Assembly: GCA_025934775.1 (NCBI GenBank)
Contig: JAICWO010000008.1
Span: forward strand, 124,001-188,000
Direction of reading: 5' to 3'
Origin: Gemmatimonadaceae bacterium
GTDB lineage: Bacteria; Gemmatimonadota; Gemmatimonadetes; Gemmatimonadales; Gemmatimonadaceae
DNA length: 64,000 nucleotides
Below the pieces are notes generated by a model. That model saw nothing but the letters and a program-made list of their open reading frames with translations, was not told where the DNA came from and searched no databases. The position numbers and the translations under genes were made by a program. Shown one piece after another: positions 14,231-27,118 of the stretch (its first letter is position 1; every line of letters begins with the position of its first letter).

Positions 14231-15031
14231 ATGACGGATCAAGTGGCCGAATCGGAAATCACATCGCTTCCGTTGTCCGACGGCGGCCGATATGTCTATT
14301 GCATCATCCGCAGCGATCGCCAGCGCGAGTTCGGCTCGATCGGCATCGGCGGCGGCCAGCGCGTCTTCACGGTGGCCTACCAGGACCTCGCCGCCGTCGT
14401 CAGCGACACGCCCATCGTCATCTACGACCCCACACGTGAGAACGTCCTCGCGCACGAATTCGTGAACGAGACCGTCATGCGCGAGCATACTGTGATCCCG
14501 ATGTCGTTCGGCACGGTGTTTCGTTCGGAAGACGACGTCACGGAGCTCCTCCGCTCGACGTATCAAGCGTTCAGCGACGTGCTCGAGAAGATGCAGGACA
14601 AGATCGAGTTCGGCCTCAAGGTGCTCTGGGATCGCGACAAGGTCGTCGCCACGCTCGAGCGCGAGAATGACGAGATCCGGCGTCTCAAGGACGAGATCAG
14701 CCGCCACACGACGACGTCGACCTACTTCGCGCGCATGCAGCTCGGGCGCTTGATCGACTCGGCGATGGAAGAGCTGTCGAGTCGCTACGTGTCGGACATC
14801 CACGAAGCGCTGAAGCCGGTAGCGGTGGCGAGCCGCTCGAACAAGCCGATCGGCGACCGCATGATCTTGAACGCGGCGTTCCTGGTGGACCGCGCGCAGG
14901 AGCAGGCGTTCGACGATCGCGTGAAGGAGACGAGCCGCAAGTACGAGGACGTGCTCGCGTTCAAGTACTCGGGCCCATGGCCGCCGTACAACTTCGTCAA
15001 CATCAAGCTCAAGCTCGAGAAGGCCGACTGA
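14231..15031 (+). CDS. gvpF: Gas vesicle protein GvpF/GvpL family (copy 1)
   Basis: A 266-residue soluble assembly protein. It starts its fold with R-Y-V-Y-C-I-I-R and has V-A-Y-Q-D-L-A-A-V-V-S-D, T-V-M-R-E-H-T-V-I-P-M-S-F-G-T-V-F and the C-terminal S-G-P-W-P-P-Y-N-F-V, all typical of the family. A charged coiled coil lies near residues 140-165. GvpF/L proteins bind GvpA and are required in early vesicle assembly. This is the most canonical of three copies in the cluster; whether to call it F or L cannot be decided from sequence alone. gvpG starts 1 nt after the stop. Confidence 0.9.
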   Translation: MTDQVAESEITSLPLSDGGRYVYCIIRSDRQREFGSIGIGGGQRVFTVAYQDLAAVVSDTPIVIYDPTRENVLAHEFVNETVMREHTVIPMSFGTVFRSEDDVTELLRSTYQAFSDVLEKMQDKIEFGLKVLWDRDKVVATLERENDEIRRLKDEISRHTTTSTYFARMQLGRLIDSAMEELSSRYVSDIHEALKPVAVASRSNKPIGDRMILNAAFLVDRAQEQAFDDRVKETSRKYEDVLAFKYSGPWPPYNFVNIKLKLEKAD

Positions 15032-15032
15032 C

Positions 15033-15335
15033 ATGGGTCTCCTCTCGAACCTCCTGTTCTTTCCGGTGACCGGTCCCGTCGCGGGGATCAAGTGGTCGCT
15101 GGGGAAAGTGCAGAAGGTGGTCGAGGAAGAGCTGACCGACGACACCGCGATCAAGCAGGATCTCATGGAGCTGCAGATGCAGCTCGAGCTCGGCGACATC
15201 GACGACGACGAGTACGCCCGCCGCGAGTCGGAGATCATGGGGCGACTGCGCGACGTCCGCGCGTGGCGCGAGCGGCTCGGCAAGGCGACGAGCGGCGGTC
15301 CGGTCCGCGTCGCGCGCGATACCGACGAGGAGTGA
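15033..15335 (+). CDS. gvpG: Gas vesicle protein GvpG
   Basis: A 100-residue protein starting M-G-L-L-S-N-L-L-F-F-P-V-T-G-P-V-A-G-I-K-W-S-L-G-K, the GvpG hallmark, then an acidic helical region with D-L-M-E-L-Q-M-Q-L-E-L-G-D-I-D-D-D-E-Y. GvpG is an essential small accessory protein in vesicle assembly, commonly next to gvpF. It overlaps the following ATPase gene by 4 nt (GTGA), so the two are likely translationally coupled. Confidence 0.93.
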   Translation: MGLLSNLLFFPVTGPVAGIKWSLGKVQKVVEEELTDDTAIKQDLMELQMQLELGDIDDDEYARRESEIMGRLRDVRAWRERLGKATSGGPVRVARDTDEE

Positions 15336-17218
15336 GCGCGCTCGACGCGCTGCTCGACCGTCTTCCCCGCACCACGCTGGTCGTCGGCAAGGGCGGCGTC
15401 GGCAAAACGACGATCGCGTGCGGCATCGCCGCCCGACTCGCGAGTCGCGGCGACGAAACGCTCCTCCTCTCCACCGACCCGGCCGCCGCACTCGCGTCGA
15501 CGATCGGCGCGCCGGTGGCCGACCGCGCGACGCCCATTCCCAACGCCCCGCGCCTGCACGCGCGACAGCTCGTCGCGGAGGAGCTCCGCACCGAATTCCT
15601 CGGGCGCTGGCGCGAAACGATCGCCGAGATCGTCGATCGCGGCACGTATCTCGACCGCGCCGACGTCGATGGCCTCGTCGACGCCGCGCTGCCAGGTGCT
15701 GATGAGATCTTCGCGCTCCTCGCGTTGGCAGATCTGCTCGCCGAGTCGACGGTCTATGAGCGAATCGTGGTCGACACCGCACCGACCGGGCACACGCTGC
15801 GGCTGCTCGCGCTCCCGGACACGTTTCGTGCGCTGCTCTCGATGCTGGACCTCATGCAGAGCAAGCATCGGTTCATGGTGCGCGCGCTGACCCGGCGCTA
15901 CCGCCGCGAGCGAGCGGACGATTTTCTCGACGACATGCGCGCCCGGGTCGACGCGCTCCGCGCCGCGCTCTCGGACGCGAGGAGCTGCGCGGCGCTCGTC
16001 GTCACGCGCGCCGAACCGGTGGTGCTCGTGGAGACGGGGCGGTACATCGAGAGTCTGCGCGCACTGCACGTCACGATCGCCGGGCTGATCGTGAATGGGT
16101 ACGCGGCATCGCGCGGGAGCTCCGCGCTCGCGCCGGTCGCCGAGCTCGACCCCTCGCTCTCGCGGCTCTGGATCTCCAGAGCCGCCCAGCCGCCACGCGG
16201 TCTTGCCGCCGTGGAGGCGCTGACCGCGTCGGCGAGCGACGCGCCGCCGACCGCTATTAGAGAACTGGAAACCGCGCCCCGAGGGCCGTCGCTTTCGACG
16301 AAGACGCTCTCGCAGCTCGTGCGGCAGCTCACCGTGGTCGCCGGCAAGGGCGGCGTCGGCAAGAGCACCGTCGCGTGCGCGCTCGCGATCGCGGCCGCCG
16401 ATTCGGCCGCGGGCGACGTGCTGCTCGTCTCCACCGACCCCGCGCCGTCGCTCGCCGACGCGCTCGGCGAGAGCGATGCGCCCTGGGCGCGCGCCGACGT
16501 CGAGCACCGGCTCCCGGACCCGCCGCGGCTCGTCGTCCGCCAGATGGACGCCACCGCAGCGTTCGCGCGCGCGCGCGACGAATATCGCGATCGCATCGAC
16601 GCGCTCTTCGCGGCGCTCGTCGGGCGCGGCGTGGATATCGAGCAGGATCGCGCGATCCTCCGCGACCTGATGGCGCTCGCGCCGCCCGGCATCGACGAGC
16701 TGTTCGCCATCAGCATCCTTGGCGACGCGCTCGCCGAACGACGCTTCGATCGCGTCATCGTTGATCCGGCGCCGACCGGACATCTGCTGCGACTGCTCGA
16801 CATGCCGGCGATCGCGCTCGACTGGTCGCATCGCCTGATGCGCCTGATGCTCAAGTACCAGAGCGTCGTTGCCTTGGGTGACAGCGCGCAGCAACTGCTC
16901 GACTTCGCGAAACGCACGAAGGCGCTTGGCGCGCTGCTCCACGATCCCGAGGCATGCGGCGTCGTGATCGTGGCGTTGGACGAGCCGGTTGTGCGCGATG
17001 AAACGGAGCGGCTCGCCGGGGCAGTGGCCGCGCGCGACATGGACGTCATCGCGATCGTGTGGAATCGGCTCACGCGCAGCGCCACCTCCGCGACCCCTCT
17101 TCCTGCGACGCTCGCCGCGCGACAGTTTTTCGCGGACGAGGCGAGTCCGCCTCCCGTTGGAGCGGCCTCGCTCCGGGCGTGGTCGCGCGGTTGGCGCGAG
17201 CACGTGACGACTTCGTGA
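15332..17218 (+). CDS. Tandem ArsA/Get3-type ATPase inside the gas vesicle cluster
   Basis: A 628-residue protein with two ArsA-family ATPase halves. Half 1: V-G-K-G-G-V-G-K-T-T (about residues 18-27), L-L-L-S-T-D-P-A-A and V-D-T-A-P-T-G-H-T-L-R (near 148). Half 2: A-G-K-G-G-V-G-K-S-T (near 337), L-L-V-S-T-D-P-A-P and V-D-P-A-P-T-G-H-L-L-R (near 478). These are the P-loop and switch motifs of ArsA and of the tail-anchored-protein chaperone Get3. I see no arsenite-site cysteine set, no Get3 C-x-x-C and no arsenic genes nearby. GTG at 15332 overlaps the gvpG stop. A chaperone role for hydrophobic GvpA is inference. The frame upstream of 15332 belongs to gvpG. Confidence 0.85.
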   Translation: MSALDALLDRLPRTTLVVGKGGVGKTTIACGIAARLASRGDETLLLSTDPAAALASTIGAPVADRATPIPNAPRLHARQLVAEELRTEFLGRWRETIAEIVDRGTYLDRADVDGLVDAALPGADEIFALLALADLLAESTVYERIVVDTAPTGHTLRLLALPDTFRALLSMLDLMQSKHRFMVRALTRRYRRERADDFLDDMRARVDALRAALSDARSCAALVVTRAEPVVLVETGRYIESLRALHVTIAGLIVNGYAASRGSSALAPVAELDPSLSRLWISRAAQPPRGLAAVEALTASASDAPPTAIRELETAPRGPSLSTKTLSQLVRQLTVVAGKGGVGKSTVACALAIAAADSAAGDVLLVSTDPAPSLADALGESDAPWARADVEHRLPDPPRLVVRQMDATAAFARARDEYRDRIDALFAALVGRGVDIEQDRAILRDLMALAPPGIDELFAISILGDALAERRFDRVIVDPAPTGHLLRLLDMPAIALDWSHRLMRLMLKYQSVVALGDSAQQLLDFAKRTKALGALLHDPEACGVVIVALDEPVVRDETERLAGAVAARDMDVIAIVWNRLTRSATSATPLPATLAARQFFADEASPPPVGAASLRAWSRGWREHVTTS

Positions 17219-17225
17219 TCGCCAC

Positions 17226-18047
17226 ATGGCCACATCCACCGCGCAATCCATCTGGTACGTGTACGGCGTCGTGCCCGTCACGCTCGCGCCGACATCGGCG
17301 CCGGCGGGGCTCGACGACGTAGGCGTCGCCGTGGAGAGCGAAGGTGCGCTGGCCGCGCTCGTGTCGATTCTCGATGCGTCGCGCTACGCACCCGAGCGCA
17401 TCGAGGCCGCGAGTGGCGAGGTGGAGTGGTTGAGCCCCCGCGCCGTCGCACACGACCTGGTGTTGACCTGGGCCAGCGATCGCGGGCCGGTGATTCCCAT
17501 GCCGATGTTCTCGATGTTCACCGGACGCGAAGCTGTGCGCGAGATGCTGCGCGATCGGGCGTCGCAGCTCGCGGACACCCTCGAGCGCGTCGGCCGTGGA
17601 CGCGAATACGCGCTGCGCGTGTACCGCGTCGACCGCGAGCTCCTTGGCGCGATCGATACCATGAGCCCGCGCCTCCGCGAGCTCGCGGACAGCGCCGCGG
17701 CGGCGTCGCCCGGGCAGCGATACCTCCTCGAGCGCAAGCTCGATGCGGAGAAGAAGGCCGAAGTCCGTGTCGTGAGCCAGCAAGCGGTCGACGAGATCGC
17801 CGATGCGCTCGGCGATCTCGCGCTCGACTCGGTGCGCTCGGCCATTCCCCGCGTCGCGGAGAGCGACGCCGCGGCGCGCGGCGTGATGGTGCTGAACGCC
17901 GCGTTCCTCGTCGCGCCGGCGGCGTTGGAGCAATTTCAGAGGACGCTCACGATGTTCGTCGAGCGCTACGACGGGCGCGGCTTCCGGTTCGATTTCACCG
18001 GCCCGTGGCCCGCGTACCATTTCGCCGGCGAGACGTCGCATGCGTGA
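17226..18047 (+). CDS. gvpL: Gas vesicle protein GvpL/GvpF family (copy 2)
   Basis: A 273-residue protein with the family start I-W-Y-V-Y-G-V-V-P and the closing F-D-F-T-G-P-W-P-A-Y-H-F-A, plus V-L-N-A-A-F-L-V shared with copy 1. The mid-part has V-I-P-M-P-M-F-S-M-F where copy 1 has I-P-M-S-F-G-T-V-F. It lies 7 nt after the ArsA-like gene and overlaps the next small gvp gene by 8 nt. It probably acts with the other F/L copies in the nucleation complex; separate roles cannot be read from sequence. Confidence 0.88.
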   Translation: MATSTAQSIWYVYGVVPVTLAPTSAPAGLDDVGVAVESEGALAALVSILDASRYAPERIEAASGEVEWLSPRAVAHDLVLTWASDRGPVIPMPMFSMFTGREAVREMLRDRASQLADTLERVGRGREYALRVYRVDRELLGAIDTMSPRLRELADSAAAASPGQRYLLERKLDAEKKAEVRVVSQQAVDEIADALGDLALDSVRSAIPRVAESDAAARGVMVLNAAFLVAPAALEQFQRTLTMFVERYDGRGFRFDFTGPWPAYHFAGETSHA

Positions 18048-18282
18048 TGATGACGCGGGTGGCGAGGAGATCGACACCGAGCAGCTCGTGCTCAGCGATC
18101 TGCTCAATCACGTGCTGGACAAGGGCGTGGTGATCAGCGGCACCGTCACGATCTCGATCGCCGACATCGATCTGTTGATGGTCGATCTCCGTCTGCTGCT
18201 GACGTCGATCGAGACGTCGATGCGACACGGGATTGCGGATGCCACACGGCGGCTCGTCTCTGGCGAGGGAGGAGAACGGTGA
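18040..18282 (+). CDS. GvpA-domain accessory gas vesicle protein (GvpJ/M/S type)
   Basis: An 80-residue protein carrying the GvpA-fold core: L-S-D-L-L-N-H-V-L-D-K-G-V-V-I-S-G-T-V-T-I and I-A-D-I-D-L-L-M-V-D-L-R-L-L-L-T-S-I-E. It differs from the shell protein at the conserved D-A-W-V-R-V segment, so it is one of the minor GvpJ/M/S proteins thought to start or cap the vesicle. Overlaps gvpL by 8 nt and shares a TGATG junction with the next gene. Confidence 0.85.
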   Translation: MRDDDAGGEEIDTEQLVLSDLLNHVLDKGVVISGTVTISIADIDLLMVDLRLLLTSIETSMRHGIADATRRLVSGEGGER

Positions 18283-19034
18283 TGAGCACGCATCTGTACT
18301 GCGTTTTGCCGCACGCGTTGCGCGGTGACGTGCCGCCCGGGTTGAGCGGCGTCGATGGCGCTCGCGTGCGCGCGCTCACCGTCGAGCAGCTCGTCGTCTG
18401 GGTGAGCGACGTGGAACGCCGCGCGCCGATGTCGTTCGACGGCGTGCGCGCGCACGACGCCGTCGTCGAAGCGGCGCTCGAGATGGGCGCCACGCCGATG
18501 CCGGCGCGGTTCGGTCAGACGTTCAGCGACGATGCCGCGTGTCGCACGGCGATTGCCCGGCGCGCGACCTCGGTCGAGACGGTGCTCGAAGAATTGCAGG
18601 GGTGTGTCGAGATGACGGTGATCATCACGCCCTCCACCCGGCGCATGCTGAGCGATCTGGAGCCTGTCGTGCCGCAGATGTTCGAGGCGGATGCTCCCGG
18701 CGCGGGGCGCGACTACCTCGAGGCGCTGAGTGCGCGCGAAGCCGCCTCGGGGACCGTACAGCGCACCGCGAACGGACTCGCCGAGCGCCTGGAGGCAGCG
18801 GTCGCCCCGGTACTGGTGAAGAAGGCGCAGCCAAGGTCCGTGATGCGCATGCCAATGCTGACGCTGTCGCATCTCATTCGGCGTGACGATGTCGACGCAT
18901 ATCGAGAGGCGATCTCTTCCGTCAAGTCTGGGCCGGAGTTGCGGTATCTTCTCATCGGACCGCGGGCGCCGTACAGCTTCTGTGGACTGGACGCCGGGCC
19001 CGGCGGGGCGCACGGCATGAATCTGGCGGACTGA
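18282..19034 (+). CDS. Gas vesicle protein GvpF/GvpL family (copy 3, divergent)
   Basis: A 250-residue, shorter and more divergent GvpF/L protein: it starts H-L-Y-C-V-L-P, has the mid-motif M-P-A-R-F-G-Q-T-F and closes L-L-I-G-P-R-A-P-Y-S-F, the counterpart of G-P-W-P-P-Y-N-F in copy 1. GGAGGAG just upstream favours ATG 18282 over GTG 18279. The conserved closing Trp is replaced by Arg, suggesting a specialised role. Followed by gvpK after 3 nt. Confidence 0.8.
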   Translation: MSTHLYCVLPHALRGDVPPGLSGVDGARVRALTVEQLVVWVSDVERRAPMSFDGVRAHDAVVEAALEMGATPMPARFGQTFSDDAACRTAIARRATSVETVLEELQGCVEMTVIITPSTRRMLSDLEPVVPQMFEADAPGAGRDYLEALSAREAASGTVQRTANGLAERLEAAVAPVLVKKAQPRSVMRMPMLTLSHLIRRDDVDAYREAISSVKSGPELRYLLIGPRAPYSFCGLDAGPGGAHGMNLAD

Positions 19035-19037
19035 ACC

Positions 19038-19382
19038 ATGCCCAACGACGAAAGCAATTCCAGCCCGGCGGACGACGACGAAACGACCGCCGCGCTGCAT
19101 GCAATCGCGCGCGCGCTGCCCGACCGGATCAACGCGGACCCTGAGCACGTCGAACAAGGTCTTGCGCGACTCGTGCTGACGGTGATAGAACTGCTGCGGC
19201 ACGTGCTCGAGCATCAGGCGATTCGCCGGATGGACGGCGGCTCGTTGTCGCCGGAAGAGCTCGAGCGGCTTGGCCTGGCGCTGCTCAAGCTCAACCATCG
19301 CATGGACGAGCTGAAATCAGTATTTGGATTGTCGGATGAGGATCTCAATATCGACCTCGGACCGCTGGGCCGGCTGCGCTAG
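19038..19382 (+). CDS. gvpK: Gas vesicle protein GvpK
   Basis: A 114-residue protein with the GvpK core: V-E-Q-G-L-A-R-L-V-L-T-V-I-E-L-L-R-H-V-L-E-H-Q-A-I-R-R-M, then L-S-P-E-E-L-E-R-L-G-L-A-L and the final D-L-N-I-D-L-G-P-L-G. GvpK is an essential accessory protein in most gas vesicle clusters. It has an acidic N-terminal stretch of about 15 residues. It lies between the third GvpF/L copy and a second GvpA-domain protein. Confidence 0.93.
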   Translation: MPNDESNSSPADDDETTAALHAIARALPDRINADPEHVEQGLARLVLTVIELLRHVLEHQAIRRMDGGSLSPEELERLGLALLKLNHRMDELKSVFGLSDEDLNIDLGPLGRLR

Positions 19383-19407
19383 CCGGCCGTGCACAGGAGC
19401 ATTCTGA

Positions 19408-19740
19408 TTGCCAGAGTTCGTCAGCCCCACGCGCACACATGGTCTGGTCGACATTCTCGATCGAGTCCTCGACAAGGGCTTGGTCATCGCCGGTGACATC
19501 AAGATCAACTTGGCCAACGTCGAGCTGCTCACGATTCAAGTGCGGCTGCTCGTCTGCTCGATCGACAAAGCCGAGCAGATCGGCCTGAACTGGTGGCGGC
19601 AGGATCCGCGGTTGAGCTCCGAAGCCGCGGTCGGCCGCGTTGGCGATGGATCCGACCTCGATGCCCGTCTCTCCCGCATCGAGCAGCAGTTGACGCAACT
19701 CGCCGGCGCGGCGCAGCCGCCCGCGAGGCCGCACCGATAA
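19408..19740 (+). CDS. GvpA-domain accessory gas vesicle protein (second GvpJ/M/S type)
   Basis: A 110-residue protein with the GvpA core [22 protein letters not shown] and V-E-L-L-T-I-Q-V-R-L-L-V-C-S-I-D-K-A, then a 50-residue polar tail with a short coiled coil (D-A-R-L-S-R-I-E-Q-Q-L-T-Q-L). It starts with TTG at 19408, supported by AGGAG at 19396-19400. It is likely a GvpJ- or GvpS-like nucleation protein; the exact letter is uncertain. Confidence 0.85.
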   Translation: MPEFVSPTRTHGLVDILDRVLDKGLVIAGDIKINLANVELLTIQVRLLVCSIDKAEQIGLNWWRQDPRLSSEAAVGRVGDGSDLDARLSRIEQQLTQLAGAAQPPARPHR

Positions 19741-19806
19741 TTCGTCGCTTAGCGCTGTAACCGCCTCGCGCGGTCTCGTACCCCAGCTCCCAAGGACGGG
19801 ATAATC

Positions 19807-20115
19807 ATGGCCGTTGAACGCACACCAAGTGGTAGTTCACTCATCGACGTCCTCGATCGCGTACTCGATAAGGGTATCGTGATCGATGCGTGGGTGCGCG
19901 TGTCCCTCGTCGGCATCGACCTGGTGACCGTGGAAGCCCGCGTCGTGGTGGCCTCGATCGACACGTACCTCAAGTACTCCGAGGCAGTCGGCATCACGGG
20001 ACCGGTCTCGCGGCCGCGCGAACTCGGCGCCGGTGGCGCGGACGAGCTCGAACGCATGCAACGCGAAAACGCCGAGCTTCGTCGCCAGCTCGAACAGCGG
20101 AACAAAAAGGACTGA
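19807..20115 (+). CDS. gvpA: Gas vesicle structural protein GvpA with C-terminal extension
   Basis: A 102-residue protein whose first 66 residues match the canonical shell protein: [26 protein letters not shown], then [16 protein letters not shown]. GvpA polymerises into the ribs of the gas-filled shell. Unlike the usual protein of about 70 residues, it continues for some 36 residues into a charged helix, [18 protein letters not shown] weak AAGGA lies 10 nt upstream, after a 66-nt gap that is the largest in the gvp run and may hold its own promoter. Confidence 0.93.
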
Positions 20116-20121
20116 CGTCGC

Positions 20122-22362
20122 ATGGCAGTAATCGGAGACCGTGGAGTCGCCGGTCTCCTTTCCGCTCTGGCGGAAGCCCCCGACGTCTCCGCGGCGGCTT
20201 CCTTTCTGCTTGCGCAGCTCGCTGACATCACGGGAGCGCCGCGAGGGGTCCTGTTGCGCATCGACCCCTCGCAAGACCACCTCGCCCTCGTCGCATCGTT
20301 CGGCCTCGACGTGGATCCGCTCTCGGTGCGGGTGCCGATCGGCGATCTTTCGAGTCCTCTCATCGTCAGCGCGCTCGCATTATCCGCGATTCGCGGCGAG
20401 GGACCTGTCGGTCCGCGTGCGTTCGCGGGCTTCACGGGCTGGACGGTGCTCCCCATGTCGCAGCCGCGCTTCCGCGGCGCGCCCGACACGCTCGGACCGG
20501 GACGCGCCGCGGAGCTGATCGCGTCCAAGCGCGTCGCGATCGTGAGCCCCCCGCCCGCTCGCCCGGGCATCGTACCCGGCGGGGTGGTGCTGCTCGATGC
20601 CAAAATCGAGGGCGAGGCGCTCGAGGAGGCGGTCGAGCTCGTTTCGCTCGCGAGCCCGGTGCTTGCGCGGCTGGGCTCACTCGAGGACGCGCGCGAGCTC
20701 TCGGATCGTCTGGGCCAGCAGCGCGAGCGGCTCACGCTGATGGTCGATTCCCTCCCCGACCCGGTCGTGATCACGAACGCGGCAAACGACATCATCACGC
20801 AGAATCAGCGCGCCGAGCGGCTGCTGCACGTGCGTGACGATGACTCGCCTGGTCGCCGCCGCGCGATCGAGTTGAACAACCTGCTCTTCACGTCGTTCCT
20901 CTCCAAGGCGGCGATGACGGGCGGCCAGCAGGCGGGTCCGCGCGAGCTCAATCTCGTCGACCCCGACGAGGGCAACGACCTCCTGTTCGAGGTTCTGGCG
21001 CATCCCCTTGGCGAGCGCGTGGGACCCGAGGACGCCGTGCTCTCCGTGCTGCGCGACGTGACCGACCTGCGACGCGCGGCCAATGAGCTCGAGCGCCAGG
21101 TGCAGCGCGTGCGGCAGGCGGAGATGACCGTCCGCGGCGAGCGCGACCGGCTCAACCTCGTCCTCAAGAACGTCGCCGATCCGATTCTCGTCACCGACGA
21201 GCGGTCGAACATCATCCTGATGAACGATCAGGCCGAGGGGCTATTCCAGATCTCTGAAGGCGAGCCGCGGTCGCGGCGGGAGATCGGCGCCGTCCGCGGC
21301 AACGACACGAAGTTCACGTCGTTCATCTCGGAGTTCGCGCTGCTCGACGATGATTCGCGGCGCGAGCGCATGTCGCTCACCCAGCCGCGGACCGGCCTCG
21401 CGCTTCCCGTCGAGGTCGTATCGGGCAAGGTGAAGAACGAGCGCGGCGAGCCGATCGCGATCATCTCCGTGCTGCACGACCTCACCAAGCAGGTGGAGAA
21501 CGAGCGGCTGTATGAAGCGCTCAAACGCCTCAACAGCGAGCTCGAGGAGCGCGTCCGGGAGGCGACCGCCGACCTGGCCGAGCAGAACGCGCGGCTCCAG
21601 TGGCAATCGCAGGAAGTGGAGCGCGCGAACAAGCTCAAGTCGGAATTTCTCGCGAGCATGTCGCACGAGCTCCGCACGCCGATCAACGCGCTGATCGGCT
21701 ACACCGCGCTCCTCCTCGACGGCGTGCTCGGCGACGTCAATCCGCGCCAGGGTGACGCGCTCAAGCGGAGCCGCGCCGCCGCCGAGCATCTCCTGGCCCT
21801 GATCAACGACATTCTGGATCTCGCCAAGATCGAGGCGGGCAAGATGCCGCTGCACCTCGAGGAGGTCGCGCTGCGCGAGGTCACGCTCGAGGTTACGCAG
21901 CAGATCGAGCCGATGGCGCGCAAGAAGCAGCTCGACTTCGAGATCGACGTCTCGCCCGACTGCCCGACGCTCTATTCGGATCGCACGAAGATCAAGCAGG
22001 TGCTGCTGAATCTCCTCTCGAACGCCGTGAAGTTCACGAACCGCGGCAAGATCTCCGTCAACGCGCAGCCGGCCGCGAGTGGCGTGCGCATCGATGTGGC
22101 GGACACCGGGATCGGCATTCGGCAATCCGATCTCCAGGCGATCTGGGAGGATTTCCGACAGGTGGATCAGTCGCGGACGCGCGAATTCGGCGGCACGGGA
22201 CTCGGCCTCAGCATCACGCGCAAGCTGCTCGAGCGGCTCGGCGGCTCCGTCTCGGCGCAAAGTGTGTACGGCGAGGGCAGCACGTTCACCGTGTACCTCC
22301 CGGTGCGGACGCCAGCCGGCAATCCGCTCGAGACACCGGTGGCCACTCCCGCGCAAACGTGA
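20122..22362 (+). CDS. PAS-domain histidine kinase at the end of the gas vesicle operon
   Basis: A 746-residue cytoplasmic sensor kinase without membrane helices. Residues 10-190 look like a GAF domain, followed by two PAS-like domains (P-D-P-V-V-I-T-N near 216 and A-D-P-I-L-V-T-D near 354), a coiled coil (about 460-510), HisKA with S-H515-E-L-R-T-P-I-N-A, and HATPase with N-L-L-S-N-A-V-K-F near 633, D-T-G-I-G-I near 661 and G-G-T-G-L-G-L. It starts 6 nt after gvpA. No response regulator is adjacent. Position suggests control by, or with, buoyancy genes; the signal is unknown. Confidence 0.88.
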   Translation: MAVIGDRGVAGLLSALAEAPDVSAAASFLLAQLADITGAPRGVLLRIDPSQDHLALVASFGLDVDPLSVRVPIGDLSSPLIVSALALSAIRGEGPVGPRAFAGFTGWTVLPMSQPRFRGAPDTLGPGRAAELIASKRVAIVSPPPARPGIVPGGVVLLDAKIEGEALEEAVELVSLASPVLARLGSLEDARELSDRLGQQRERLTLMVDSLPDPVVITNAANDIITQNQRAERLLHVRDDDSPGRRRAIELNNLLFTSFLSKAAMTGGQQAGPRELNLVDPDEGNDLLFEVLAHPLGERVGPEDAVLSVLRDVTDLRRAANELERQVQRVRQAEMTVRGERDRLNLVLKNVADPILVTDERSNIILMNDQAEGLFQISEGEPRSRREIGAVRGNDTKFTSFISEFALLDDDSRRERMSLTQPRTGLALPVEVVSGKVKNERGEPIAIISVLHDLTKQVENERLYEALKRLNSELEERVREATADLAEQNARLQWQSQEVERANKLKSEFLASMSHELRTPINALIGYTALLLDGVLGDVNPRQGDALKRSRAAAEHLLALINDILDLAKIEAGKMPLHLEEVALREVTLEVTQQIEPMARKKQLDFEIDVSPDCPTLYSDRTKIKQVLLNLLSNAVKFTNRGKISVNAQPAASGVRIDVADTGIGIRQSDLQAIWEDFRQVDQSRTREFGGTGLGLSITRKLLERLGGSVSAQSVYGEGSTFTVYLPVRTPAGNPLETPVATPAQT

Positions 22363-24384: not shown

Positions 24385-25787
24385 GTGCAGAAAAGTGTGT
24401 GAATCGCTTCTGGGTGAGTGAAATCAGGCAGCGGGCATGAGCGGATGGGTCGTGAGGATATTCTCAAGCGCACTCACGTAGCGCTTGGCGAGCCATTTCT
24501 CGTTGCGTTCCATGGCGAGCGCACTGGCGAGTCGCACGAAGCTCGCCTCGTTGGGGAAGACGCGAATGACCGACGTGCGCCGGCGGACCGCCATGTGATC
24601 GTGCTCGATCCCGTTCGTGCTCTTCACGCGATGCCGCGCGACGGCGTCGGTCAGCGCGAAGACGGTGAGCGTCTCGCCGATCGAGCCCTCGATCCAGTCC
24701 GCCAGCGTCGGCACGGTCGCTCGCCACTCGGCGACGAGCGCCTGGACCCGCAGCTCGGCCAGGGCCCGCGTCGGTGCTCGCCACACATCCTGGAGGCCGT
24801 GCTTCACCGCGTCGCGGCGCGCCTCGCTCGACACGCGATCGAGGGCGTTGCGCAGATAGTGCACTTGGCAGCGCTGATGGATGGCCTCGGGAAAGAAGCG
24901 GCGGATCGCATCGACCAAGCCCGCGTGCTCGTCCGAGACGACGTACTGTACGCCAGTGAGACCGCGTTGCAGCAGCTGTTCGAAGACACGCCGCCAGCCG
25001 AGGCCCGTCTCACTGGGATTGAGCCACACGCCAAGGTGTTCGCGATACCCGTCGGCGCCGACGCCGATCACCCAGAGCACCGCGGTGCTGCGCACCTGGC
25101 CCTCGCGCCGCACCCGCTCGACGTGCGCATCGACAACGAGATAGGGATAGGCCTTCGCACTGAGCGGCCGCGTGCGCCAGGCTGCCAAGTCACCGTCGAG
25201 GCGTTTCGTGAGCGCGCTGATCTCCGACGCCGACACGCTCGCGCCGCACAACGTCTCCACCACCGTGCTCACTTTCCGCGTCGACACGCCTTGGATGTAG
25301 AGCTCCACGAGCGTCGCGACGAGCGCCTGCTCGCTGCGTTGGTCGCGCGCGAAGAGCGAGGGCTGAAAGCGGCCGGCCCGGTCGCGCGGAATGCGGAGCT
25401 CGAGCGTCCCGACGCGCGTGGTGAACTGCCGCCGGCGGTAGCCGTTGCGGACCCCGCGCCGCTCAGCCGTGCGTTCAAACGGCTGGGCGCCGAGGAACTG
25501 CGTGAACTCCCGTTCGATCGTCTCGTGAATCAACGTGGAGAGCATCAGGCGAAGGGCATCCGCGGGGGCGGCGGCGCTGCCGGTGCCACCCGCGTCTTGC
25601 GGGAGTGTGAGAATTGAAGAATTCTTCGAGAGACTGGTCATCGTGTATCTCCTGGGTTTTGGGGGCGCCAACCCCCGATGAGTGTTTCTGAACACCCAGA
25701 AGATGGACGGTGGCCAGTTCTCGCTTCCAGTCTGGCGACCGTCAGCTCAACCGACCATCGTCTCCGATTCTACACAAATCTCTGCAC
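24385..25787 (-). mobile_element. Complete IS256-family insertion sequence
   Basis: Imperfect terminal inverted repeats bound the element: GTGCAG-AAAAGTGTGTGAATCG at 24385-24406 and, read from the other end, GTGCAGAGATTTGTGTAGAATCG (25787-25765). The core GTGTGTGAATCG is typical of IS256 ends. Length is about 1.4 kb with one transposase gene, normal for the family. I see no matching 8-nt target duplication next to the ends, so the insertion is old or one flank was rearranged. Confidence 0.8.
24424..25641 (-). CDS. IS256-family (mutator-type) transposase
   Basis: A 405-residue full-length transposase. It has the family order: L-I-H-E-T-I-E-R-E-F-T-Q-F-L-G-A near the start, R-N-G-Y-R-R-R, V-G-T-L-E-L-R-I-P-R-D-R-A-G-R-F-Q-P, then Y-L-V-V-D-A-H (first catalytic Asp), V-V-S-D-E-H-A-G-L (second Asp) with the C-x-x-H of R-C-Q-V-H-Y-L-R-N, and the Glu in N-G-I-E-H-D-H. 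ATG 25641 is chosen because AGGAG lies 8 nt before it; an earlier in-frame ATG at 25695 has less support. No frameshift or stop is visible, so it may be active. Confidence 0.93.
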   Translation of the reverse strand: MTSLSKNSSILTLPQDAGGTGSAAAPADALRLMLSTLIHETIEREFTQFLGAQPFERTAERRGVRNGYRRRQFTTRVGTLELRIPRDRAGRFQPSLFARDQRSEQALVATLVELYIQGVSTRKVSTVVETLCGASVSASEISALTKRLDGDLAAWRTRPLSAKAYPYLVVDAHVERVRREGQVRSTAVLWVIGVGADGYREHLGVWLNPSETGLGWRRVFEQLLQRGLTGVQYVVSDEHAGLVDAIRRFFPEAIHQRCQVHYLRNALDRVSSEARRDAVKHGLQDVWRAPTRALAELRVQALVAEWRATVPTLADWIEGSIGETLTVFALTDAVARHRVKSTNGIEHDHMAVRRRTSVIRVFPNEASFVRLASALAMERNEKWLAKRYVSALENILTTHPLMPAA

Positions 25788-26324: not shown

Positions 26325-26780
26325 TCAAAATTGGCGTAGGGCAATGAGCATGCAGGCCACATGCACGAAGCCGGAATAATTCTCGAGCTTGTTCTCGCAA
26401 CGCGTGACGAGGTGGCGAAAGGCATGCAGCCGCACGTTGGCGCGTTCGACGATCCAGCGGCGCTTGTAGCGACGCGGCCCGCGGCCGTCTTGGCAGCGAT
26501 GCTTGCGCGTGGACAGGCGCGGCGCGATGAGCTGGATACCGCGCTGCTTCACGCGGACCCAGAGTTGCCGGCTGTCGTAGCCGCGAGCGGCGGTGATGCG
26601 CTCGGGCTTCTGCTTTGGCCGGCCACGTCCTGGGCGTGGCACGGCTACCGTCGCGAGCGTCGCTTCGGCGAGCTGGCTCTCGGCGAGATTGGCAGGCGAA
26701 AGGTGCACTCCGAGAGGAATACCCTGGCCGCCGGCCGATACCATAAGCTTTGGCCACTTACCCTTGCGTGCTTTGCCCAT
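26325..26780 (-). CDS. IS5-family transposase, second frame (orfB)
   Basis: 151 codons carrying the C-terminal catalytic part: G-K-W-P-K-L-M-V-S-A-G-G-Q-G-I-P-L-G-V, A-R-G-Y-D-S (Asp of the triad) and Y-K-R-R-W-I-V-E-R (Glu), ending L-I-A-L-R-Q-F. It is in the -1 frame relative to orfA. The true product is probably the frameshift fusion covering 27118 to 26325, with the switch at the four A residues complementary to 26792-26795. The ATG at 26780 would give a fragment lacking the DNA-binding half. Confidence 0.85.
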   Translation of the reverse strand: MGKARKGKWPKLMVSAGGQGIPLGVHLSPANLAESQLAEATLATVAVPRPGRGRPKQKPERITAARGYDSRQLWVRVKQRGIQLIAPRLSTRKHRCQDGRGPRRYKRRWIVERANVRLHAFRHLVTRCENKLENYSGFVHVACMLIALRQF

Positions 26781-27118
26781 GCCAGCGCCCGTTTTATCGA
26801 GGGAGCGAAGGTCCCGTCCATGAACGCCTCACTCCGATCGAGTTGCTGGCCTTCAGCGAGGTCCTTCACGAAGGCACGCCAGAGCGTGAGCCAGACGTCG
26901 GCGCGCTCCCATTCGCCAAGGCGCCAGCACGTGACCGGCCCGGGATACGAGACGGGGAGATCGCGCCATCGTGCGCCCGTGCGGAGGACGCAGAGAATGC
27001 CGTCCACGCGCTGCCGGTCATCGGCGCGAGGCCGAGCGCCCTTCGGCTTTGCGTTCGGCTTCGGGAGATACTTGGAAATTCGCGCCCACGGCTCATCCGT
27101 CAGCTCAGTGCGCATCAC
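26645..27118 (-). CDS. IS5-family transposase, first frame (orfA)
   Basis: 157 codons, of which about the first 110 are genuine: L-T-D-E-P-W-A-R-I-S-K-Y-L-P, I-L-C-V-L-R-T-G-A-R-W-R-D-L-P (helix-turn-helix region) and F-M-D-G-T-F-A-P-S with the first catalytic Asp. Beyond that, orfA drifts into nonsense while the conserved sequence continues in orfB. At I-K-R the mRNA reads ATA-AAA-C, where Lys-tRNA can slip back one base; this matches programmed -1 frameshifting in this IS group. Confidence 0.85.
   Translation of the reverse strand: MMRTELTDEPWARISKYLPKPNAKPKGARPRADDRQRVDGILCVLRTGARWRDLPVSYPGPVTCWRLGEWERADVWLTLWRAFVKDLAEGQQLDRSEAFMDGTFAPSIKRALAWAKHARVSGQSLWYRPAARVFLSECTFRLPISPRASSPKRRSRR

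Follow-up and report, generated by a model that had tools for sequence, protein, structure and literature searches.

Gas vesicle (gvp) operons can encode two-domain homologues of the arsenical pump ATPase ArsA. In 2010, Castillo & Saier (PMC2963123) described such proteins of ∼637 aa from cyanobacteria, Chlorobi/Bacteroidetes, Geobacter and an acidobacterium, observed that the arsenite-binding cysteines of the E. coli protein are not conserved in them, and proposed that they energise a step of vesicle biogenesis. We found no experimental follow-up of this proposal in the literature searched. These ATPases bear on the question of how the very hydrophobic GvpA stays soluble and reaches the growing vesicle, a process in which GvpF, GvpG and GvpL are a known interaction hub contacting GvpA-family proteins. 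Vesicles have been produced in mammalian cells from gvpA and gvpNJKFGWV of Anabaena flos-aquae and, in irregular form, in E. coli from the Anabaena 7120 cluster, the ATPase being in neither gene list. Most gvp clusters tried in E. coli failed, and extra genes may be needed (acoustic reporter study in mammalian cells).

A two-half ATPase in a nine-gene gas vesicle cluster

The window, a 64,000-nt stretch of a 4.9-Mb Gemmatimonadota genome, contains a gvp cluster of nine genes (14231–20115) in the order gvpF, gvpG, ATPase, a gvpL-type gene, a gene for an 80-aa A/J/M-type protein, a third gvpF/L-type gene, gvpK, a gvpJ-type gene and gvpA; next comes a PAS/histidine kinase gene (Table 1). The phylum is also indicated by single-domain ArsA proteins, which in 10 of 16 of its sampled genomes are closest, with 60–66% identity, to one from a Gemmatimonadales record. 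The ATPase frame holds 628 open codons and matches Pfam ArsA_ATPase with 269 bits across two stretches, the better one being residues 14–257; in a whole-genome search, its two matches scored 146 and 126 bits. Both halves bear the marks of Get3/TRC40, namely a GKGGVGK P-loop with the signature lysine, DPA as switch I and a switch II of the DTAPTGH type (DTAPTGH in the N-terminal half, DPAPTGH in the C-terminal half), and our alignments showed these P-loops and switches to be invariant or nearly so among relatives. The intact nucleotide-binding motifs in both halves, together with the cluster layout, thus confirm the first-pass annotation, which had read two complete ArsA-type ATPase halves in one chain within a gvp cluster. 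It had further described the gene as coupled to gvpG and lying 7 nt before gvpL. The GTG start does overlap the gvpG stop by 4 nt (GTGA, 15332–15335), and the stop ending at 17218 is followed after 7 nt by an ATG at 17226, but with three GvpF/L-type genes in the cluster, names other than gvpL are possible for the gene that starts there.

In an AlphaFold model of the ATPase (mean pLDDT 82, pTM 0.77), the N-terminal half matched archaeal TRC40 (Z 30.9), and the whole chain with both halves matched closed ArsA (Z 29.8). The best sequence match in the PDB was the fused algal ArsA1 of Chlamydomonas (PDB 5zme).

Table 1. Features of the gvp locus in the window, with the basis of each assignment
Feature	Position	Strand	Basis
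GvpF/L-type gene (gvpF)	14231..15031	+	PF06386, 275 bits
gvpG, 4-nt overlap with ATPase start	15033..15335	+	PF05120, 73 bits; sequence
Tandem ArsA/Get3-fold ATPase (gvp-type ArsA)	15332..17218	+	628 aa, GTG start; Pfam, alignments, AlphaFold model
P-loop of N-terminal half, GKGGVGKT, residues 19–26	15386..15409	+	Sequence; invariant in alignment
P-loop of C-terminal half, GKGGVGKS, residues 338–345	16343..16366	+	Sequence; GKGGVGK invariant in alignments
GvpF/L-type gene (gvpL), 7 nt past ATPase	17226..18047	+	PF06386, 177 bits
Short GvpA/J/M-family protein, 80 aa	18040..18282	+	PF00741, 53 bits
Third GvpF/L-type gene	18279..19034	+	PF06386, 130 bits
gvpK	19038..19382	+	PF05121, 119 bits
GvpJ-like A/J/M-family protein	19408..19740	+	PF00741, 61 bits; NCBIfam GvpJ/GvpA-like
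gvpA, main shell protein	19807..20115	+	NCBIfam PRK09371, 117 bits, above cut-off
PAS/histidine kinase directly 3′ of gvpA	20122..22362	+	Pfam; homologue adjoins gvpA in phylum clusters

Clusters 4 and 6 of Castillo & Saier (PMC2963123) are the closest described counterparts, as their members are likewise ∼630 aa long, encoded in gvp operons, devoid of the arsenite cysteines and without ars genes nearby. With its two domains in a gvp cluster, no equivalents of the cysteines and a position in the gvp clade (see below), the window ATPase is a gvp-type two-domain ArsA that shows no essential difference from that set, although Gemmatimonadota are absent from their list and the window cluster differs in having no gvpN and in being followed by the histidine kinase. 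The association with gvp genes and the missing cysteines have therefore been known since 2010; new are the specificity for gas vesicles, the single clade with an independent fusion, and the Get3-length segments together with CXXC motifs in Myxococcota relatives.

Several other features of the locus were apparent. The kinase is probably part of the gvp locus: wherever gvpA was found in a cluster of this phylum, a homologue of the kinase adjoins it, and further ones are present in the Myxococcota loci L219 and L220 and apparently in L115. More constant than the ATPase, it may sense conditions for vesicle formation. The window's gvpA extends past the shell domain into a charged, coiled-coil-like tail. 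Downstream of the locus, at 24424–25695 (−) and 26325–27118 (−), lie Mutator-family and IS4/5-type transposases with overlapping frames.

The gvp-type ATPase co-occurs with gas vesicle genes

We searched genomes with a profile of the gvp-type ATPase, taking matches of >400 bits as strong. Of 395 Gemmatimonadota genomes, 40 had a gvpK match; strong ATPase matches were found in 17 of these 40 (in two of the 17, split over two pieces) and in none of the 355 gvpK-negative genomes, and among 244 cyanobacterial genomes the strong form was present in 35 of the 37 with gvpK and in none of the other 207 (Fisher 3e-19 and 2e-40, respectively; both values ignore shared ancestry and are descriptive only). 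Below the strong matches, the scores in the window's phylum dropped to 254 bits for a single-domain gvp-linked form (genome G185) and then to 198. The cyanobacterial ATPase gene lay ≤8 kb from gvpK in 24 of the 35 genomes, 129–718 kb away in five and on another contig in six. Because the two genes are thus far apart or on different contigs in 11 of the 35, their co-occurrence is not mere linkage. With its near-perfect match to the occurrence of gas vesicles in cyanobacteria, which holds also where it lies far from the cluster, the ATPase is a strong but neglected candidate for an assembly factor.

In Myxococcota, the phylum of a Labilithrix genome, the ATPase was found in 8 of 379 genomes, with seven of the eight strong matches lying within visible gvp clusters. 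Matches at 240–313 bits were also obtained in this phylum, and the three that we inspected each proved to be two neighbouring single-domain genes in surroundings without gvp genes. One strong gvp-type match (L222, 414–2597, genome G706) showed no gvp gene in the 12 kb fetched; three CxxC pairs precede the first P-loop in its open frame.

The tandem ATPase is not a constant part of the cluster in the window's phylum, being absent from 22 of 39 gvpK-positive genomes, including some with otherwise similar clusters. Some clusters comprise nine genes including the ATPase, others six (F, G, L, K, J, A) and no ATPase; in most clusters in which it is present, it lies between gvpG and a gvpF/L-type gene. 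At least four clusters contain the additional A/J/M and F/L genes yet lack the ATPase. Its presence was associated with the combined state of a third A/J/M and a third GvpF/L gene (raw p 0.006); however, only 2–3 of five independent pairs in a tree with long branches agreed with a link to the third A/J/M-family gene and none opposed it, and we therefore regard the association as not significant.

The gvp-type ATPase is distinct from arsenical ArsA

The fold and the two-domain layout are the same as in arsenical ArsA (PDB 1f48, 9nbw), with whose closed form the model superposes, and one might suspect that a pump ATPase of arsenic resistance had reached a gvp cluster by chance. We consider this extremely improbable. 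A check of the cluster products and of the closest flanking genes found no arsenic gene (arsB/acr3, arsD, arsR); the cluster and these flanks comprise genes for Gvp proteins, a kinase, Rieske and dNK proteins and transposases. Each of the three arsenite-binding cysteine positions was occupied by cysteine in all 21 arsenic-type ArsA proteins and in none of the 20 gvp-type ones, the window ATPase having V116, A185 and G453 in the alignment columns of C113/C172/C422. These results bear out the first-pass annotation, which had noted neither arsenic genes nor the arsenite-binding cysteine set. Against the arsenic ArsA equivalog model TIGR04291, moreover, the window ATPase reached only 167 bits (cut-off 650 bits).

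The domain-level tree separated the two types as well. Every gvp-linked ArsA domain fell into one clade (support 99/94), in which the N-terminal and the C-terminal halves of the fused proteins formed separate clades and the single-domain versions (Chlorobiaceae and G185 of the window's phylum) were sister to the fused ones, whereas the halves of ArsA from arsenic operons were placed elsewhere (100/99). Judged by sequence motif only, neighbours of several of these arsenic-type proteins read as ArsD, ArsC, ArsR or Acr3. Forcing the gvp N-terminal halves together with the arsenic N-terminal halves cost 82 log units (AU test, p 1e-7). Common ancestry of the fusion with that of arsenic ArsA is thereby rejected, and the tree and this test indicate that fusion took place independently in the gvp and the arsenic lineages.

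An arsenic role of the window ATPase is thus rejected by the TIGR04291 score, the domain tree and the cysteine columns, and its assignment to gas vesicles is strongly supported by the co-occurrence with gvpK and the absent cysteines. We also checked whether the gene occurs mostly outside gvp clusters and alongside arsenic genes, which is not the case, and the gas-vesicle idea survived. A gvp-type ATPase may be misread as an arsenic gene, and naming it as one is misleading. In Nodularia, the gvp genes run from nsp15380 to nsp15470, and the next number, nsp15480, belongs to a gene listed as arsenate-related.

Resemblance to Get3 and a proposed role

In Get3, the helical region that follows switch II contributes to the client-binding subdomain. 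Between the switch II histidine and the next core strand, 20 gvp-type proteins have 66–69 aa in the N-terminal half and 62 aa in the C-terminal half, as compared with 55 aa and 42–46 aa in 21 arsenic-type proteins. By length and predicted helices, the window ATPase has a helical subdomain of Get3 size in addition to the ATPase motifs, which it shares with Get3/TRC40 and the fused algal ArsA1. The mean hydropathy of the region did not clearly distinguish gvp-type from arsenic-type proteins, which leaves a greasy groove, or TRC40-insert character, conjectural. A CXXC motif, as in the zinc site at the dimer interface of Get3, occurs in each half of the Myxococcota and Thiohalocapsa relatives and once in one single-domain member; there is none in the window ATPase or its cyanobacterial relatives. 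The algal ArsA1, an accepted Get3-type protein and, like the window ATPase, a single-chain pseudodimer without CXXC, still binds and carries tail-anchored proteins (PMC11170914). Compared with Get3/TRC40, the gvp-type ATPase is set in a gas-vesicle context, has no known membrane receptor and a putative client, and has CXXC in only some relatives.

In these features, the gvp-type ATPase is closer to Get3 than to the arsenic pump, and a Get3-like mode of action, the idea of the first-pass annotation, is supported indirectly by its branching away from arsenic ArsA and among single-domain Get3-type proteins, the Get3-length segments and the match to ArsA1. We give about an even chance to its being a Get3-like carrier, pre-fused and dedicated to gas vesicles, of hydrophobic Gvp subunits. 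The two fused halves would form a permanent pseudodimer of the Get3/ArsA fold, with a putative client, most likely GvpA, GvpJ or a GvpM-like protein, bound in a helical groove common to both. ATP would close the halves around the hydrophobic segment of the GvpA-family protein, and hydrolysis would open them, such that the subunit could be passed to the GvpF/G/L assembly proteins. That ATP drives the binding, and which protein is the client, are inferences. The fuller proposition, of a Get3-type carrier with a fusion of its own and the shell subunits of a protein organelle, in place of tail-anchored membrane proteins, as clients that is near-universal in gas-vacuolate cyanobacteria, we put forward tentatively, as somewhat less likely to hold than to fail. 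Gas vesicle clusters that do not have the ATPase, and vesicles formed in foreign hosts without it, suggest an enhancer that is not essential; most probably, the protein assists assembly by improving the yield or quality of vesicles and is not an absolute requirement. If Gvp subunits are carried, the Get3 principle would apply to a protein organelle as well as to membrane proteins, and the ATPase could help to move gvp clusters that fail in foreign hosts, an obstacle for acoustic reporter genes.

Alternative roles in gas vesicle formation

A gas vesicle ATPase need not carry a hydrophobic client; it might energise or regulate assembly at GvpF/G/L as a switch, release factor or nucleation timer. 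The gene's usual place between gvpG and a gvpF/L-type gene, the hub formed by these proteins and a helical region that is not unusually hydrophobic are all in line with such a role, energising a biogenic step was all that Castillo & Saier proposed, and the earlier proposal that GvpF and GvpG are themselves GvpA chaperones counts against a carrier. On the other hand, a client carrier would be expected to retain two features seen here, conserved helices of Get3 length in both halves and a placement among Get3-type proteins and not with arsenic ArsA. We consider a role at the assembly platform a serious possibility, though one that probably does not apply. The P-loop fold is common also to ParA-type ATPases, by which other protein organelles are positioned, and the Serratia gvp cluster reportedly includes a parA gene; this raises the idea that the ATPase positions or partitions vesicles as ParA/MinD/McdA do for plasmids and carboxysomes. 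This is improbable, given a ParA score of 51.5 bits against 269 for ArsA_ATPase, the two fused halves with their helical subdomain, and best structural matches to TRC40/Get3 and ArsA.

The ATPase might also replace GvpN, the AAA+ ATPase of gas vesicle clusters, where gvpN is missing, and the first-pass annotation had suggested that its presence would track gvpN absence. The GvpN profile (TIGR02640) had no match above the cut-off in the window's genome, was absent from the NCBIfam matches of the ATPase itself and found no gvpN in any of the 39 gvpK-positive genomes of the phylum. This holds with or without the ATPase, however, and many clusters of the phylum consist of six gvp genes only and have neither. 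As positive controls, the same profile recovered gvpN in all 37 gvpK-positive cyanobacteria, 35 of which also have the ATPase, and in five of seven other genomes with a gvp-linked ArsA; the two are found together also in two Chlorobiaceae (single-domain form) and in Thiohalocapsa. The suggested tracking did not hold up, and replacement of GvpN, which differs in family and coexists with the gvp-type ATPase in cyanobacteria, is rejected as a general rule and very improbable for clusters without gvpN. According to a review, gvpN is one of the genes that all gvp clusters conserve, and the clusters of this phylum are thus unusual in themselves.

Other P-loop proteins were seen near the ATPase. In Chlorobiaceae gvp clusters, the single-domain gvp-type ArsA is followed by a large P-loop protein of CDC48-like appearance (L119, 5254–7419; L121, 10884–13073). 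A different P-loop protein of 633 aa, with FKGFEQLLE(L/I)AKALEEKAE near its start (L118, 8107–10005; L116, 18530–20428), adjoins the ATPase in Lyngbya, lies inside the gvp region in Nostoc and is possibly a further gas-vesicle ATPase.
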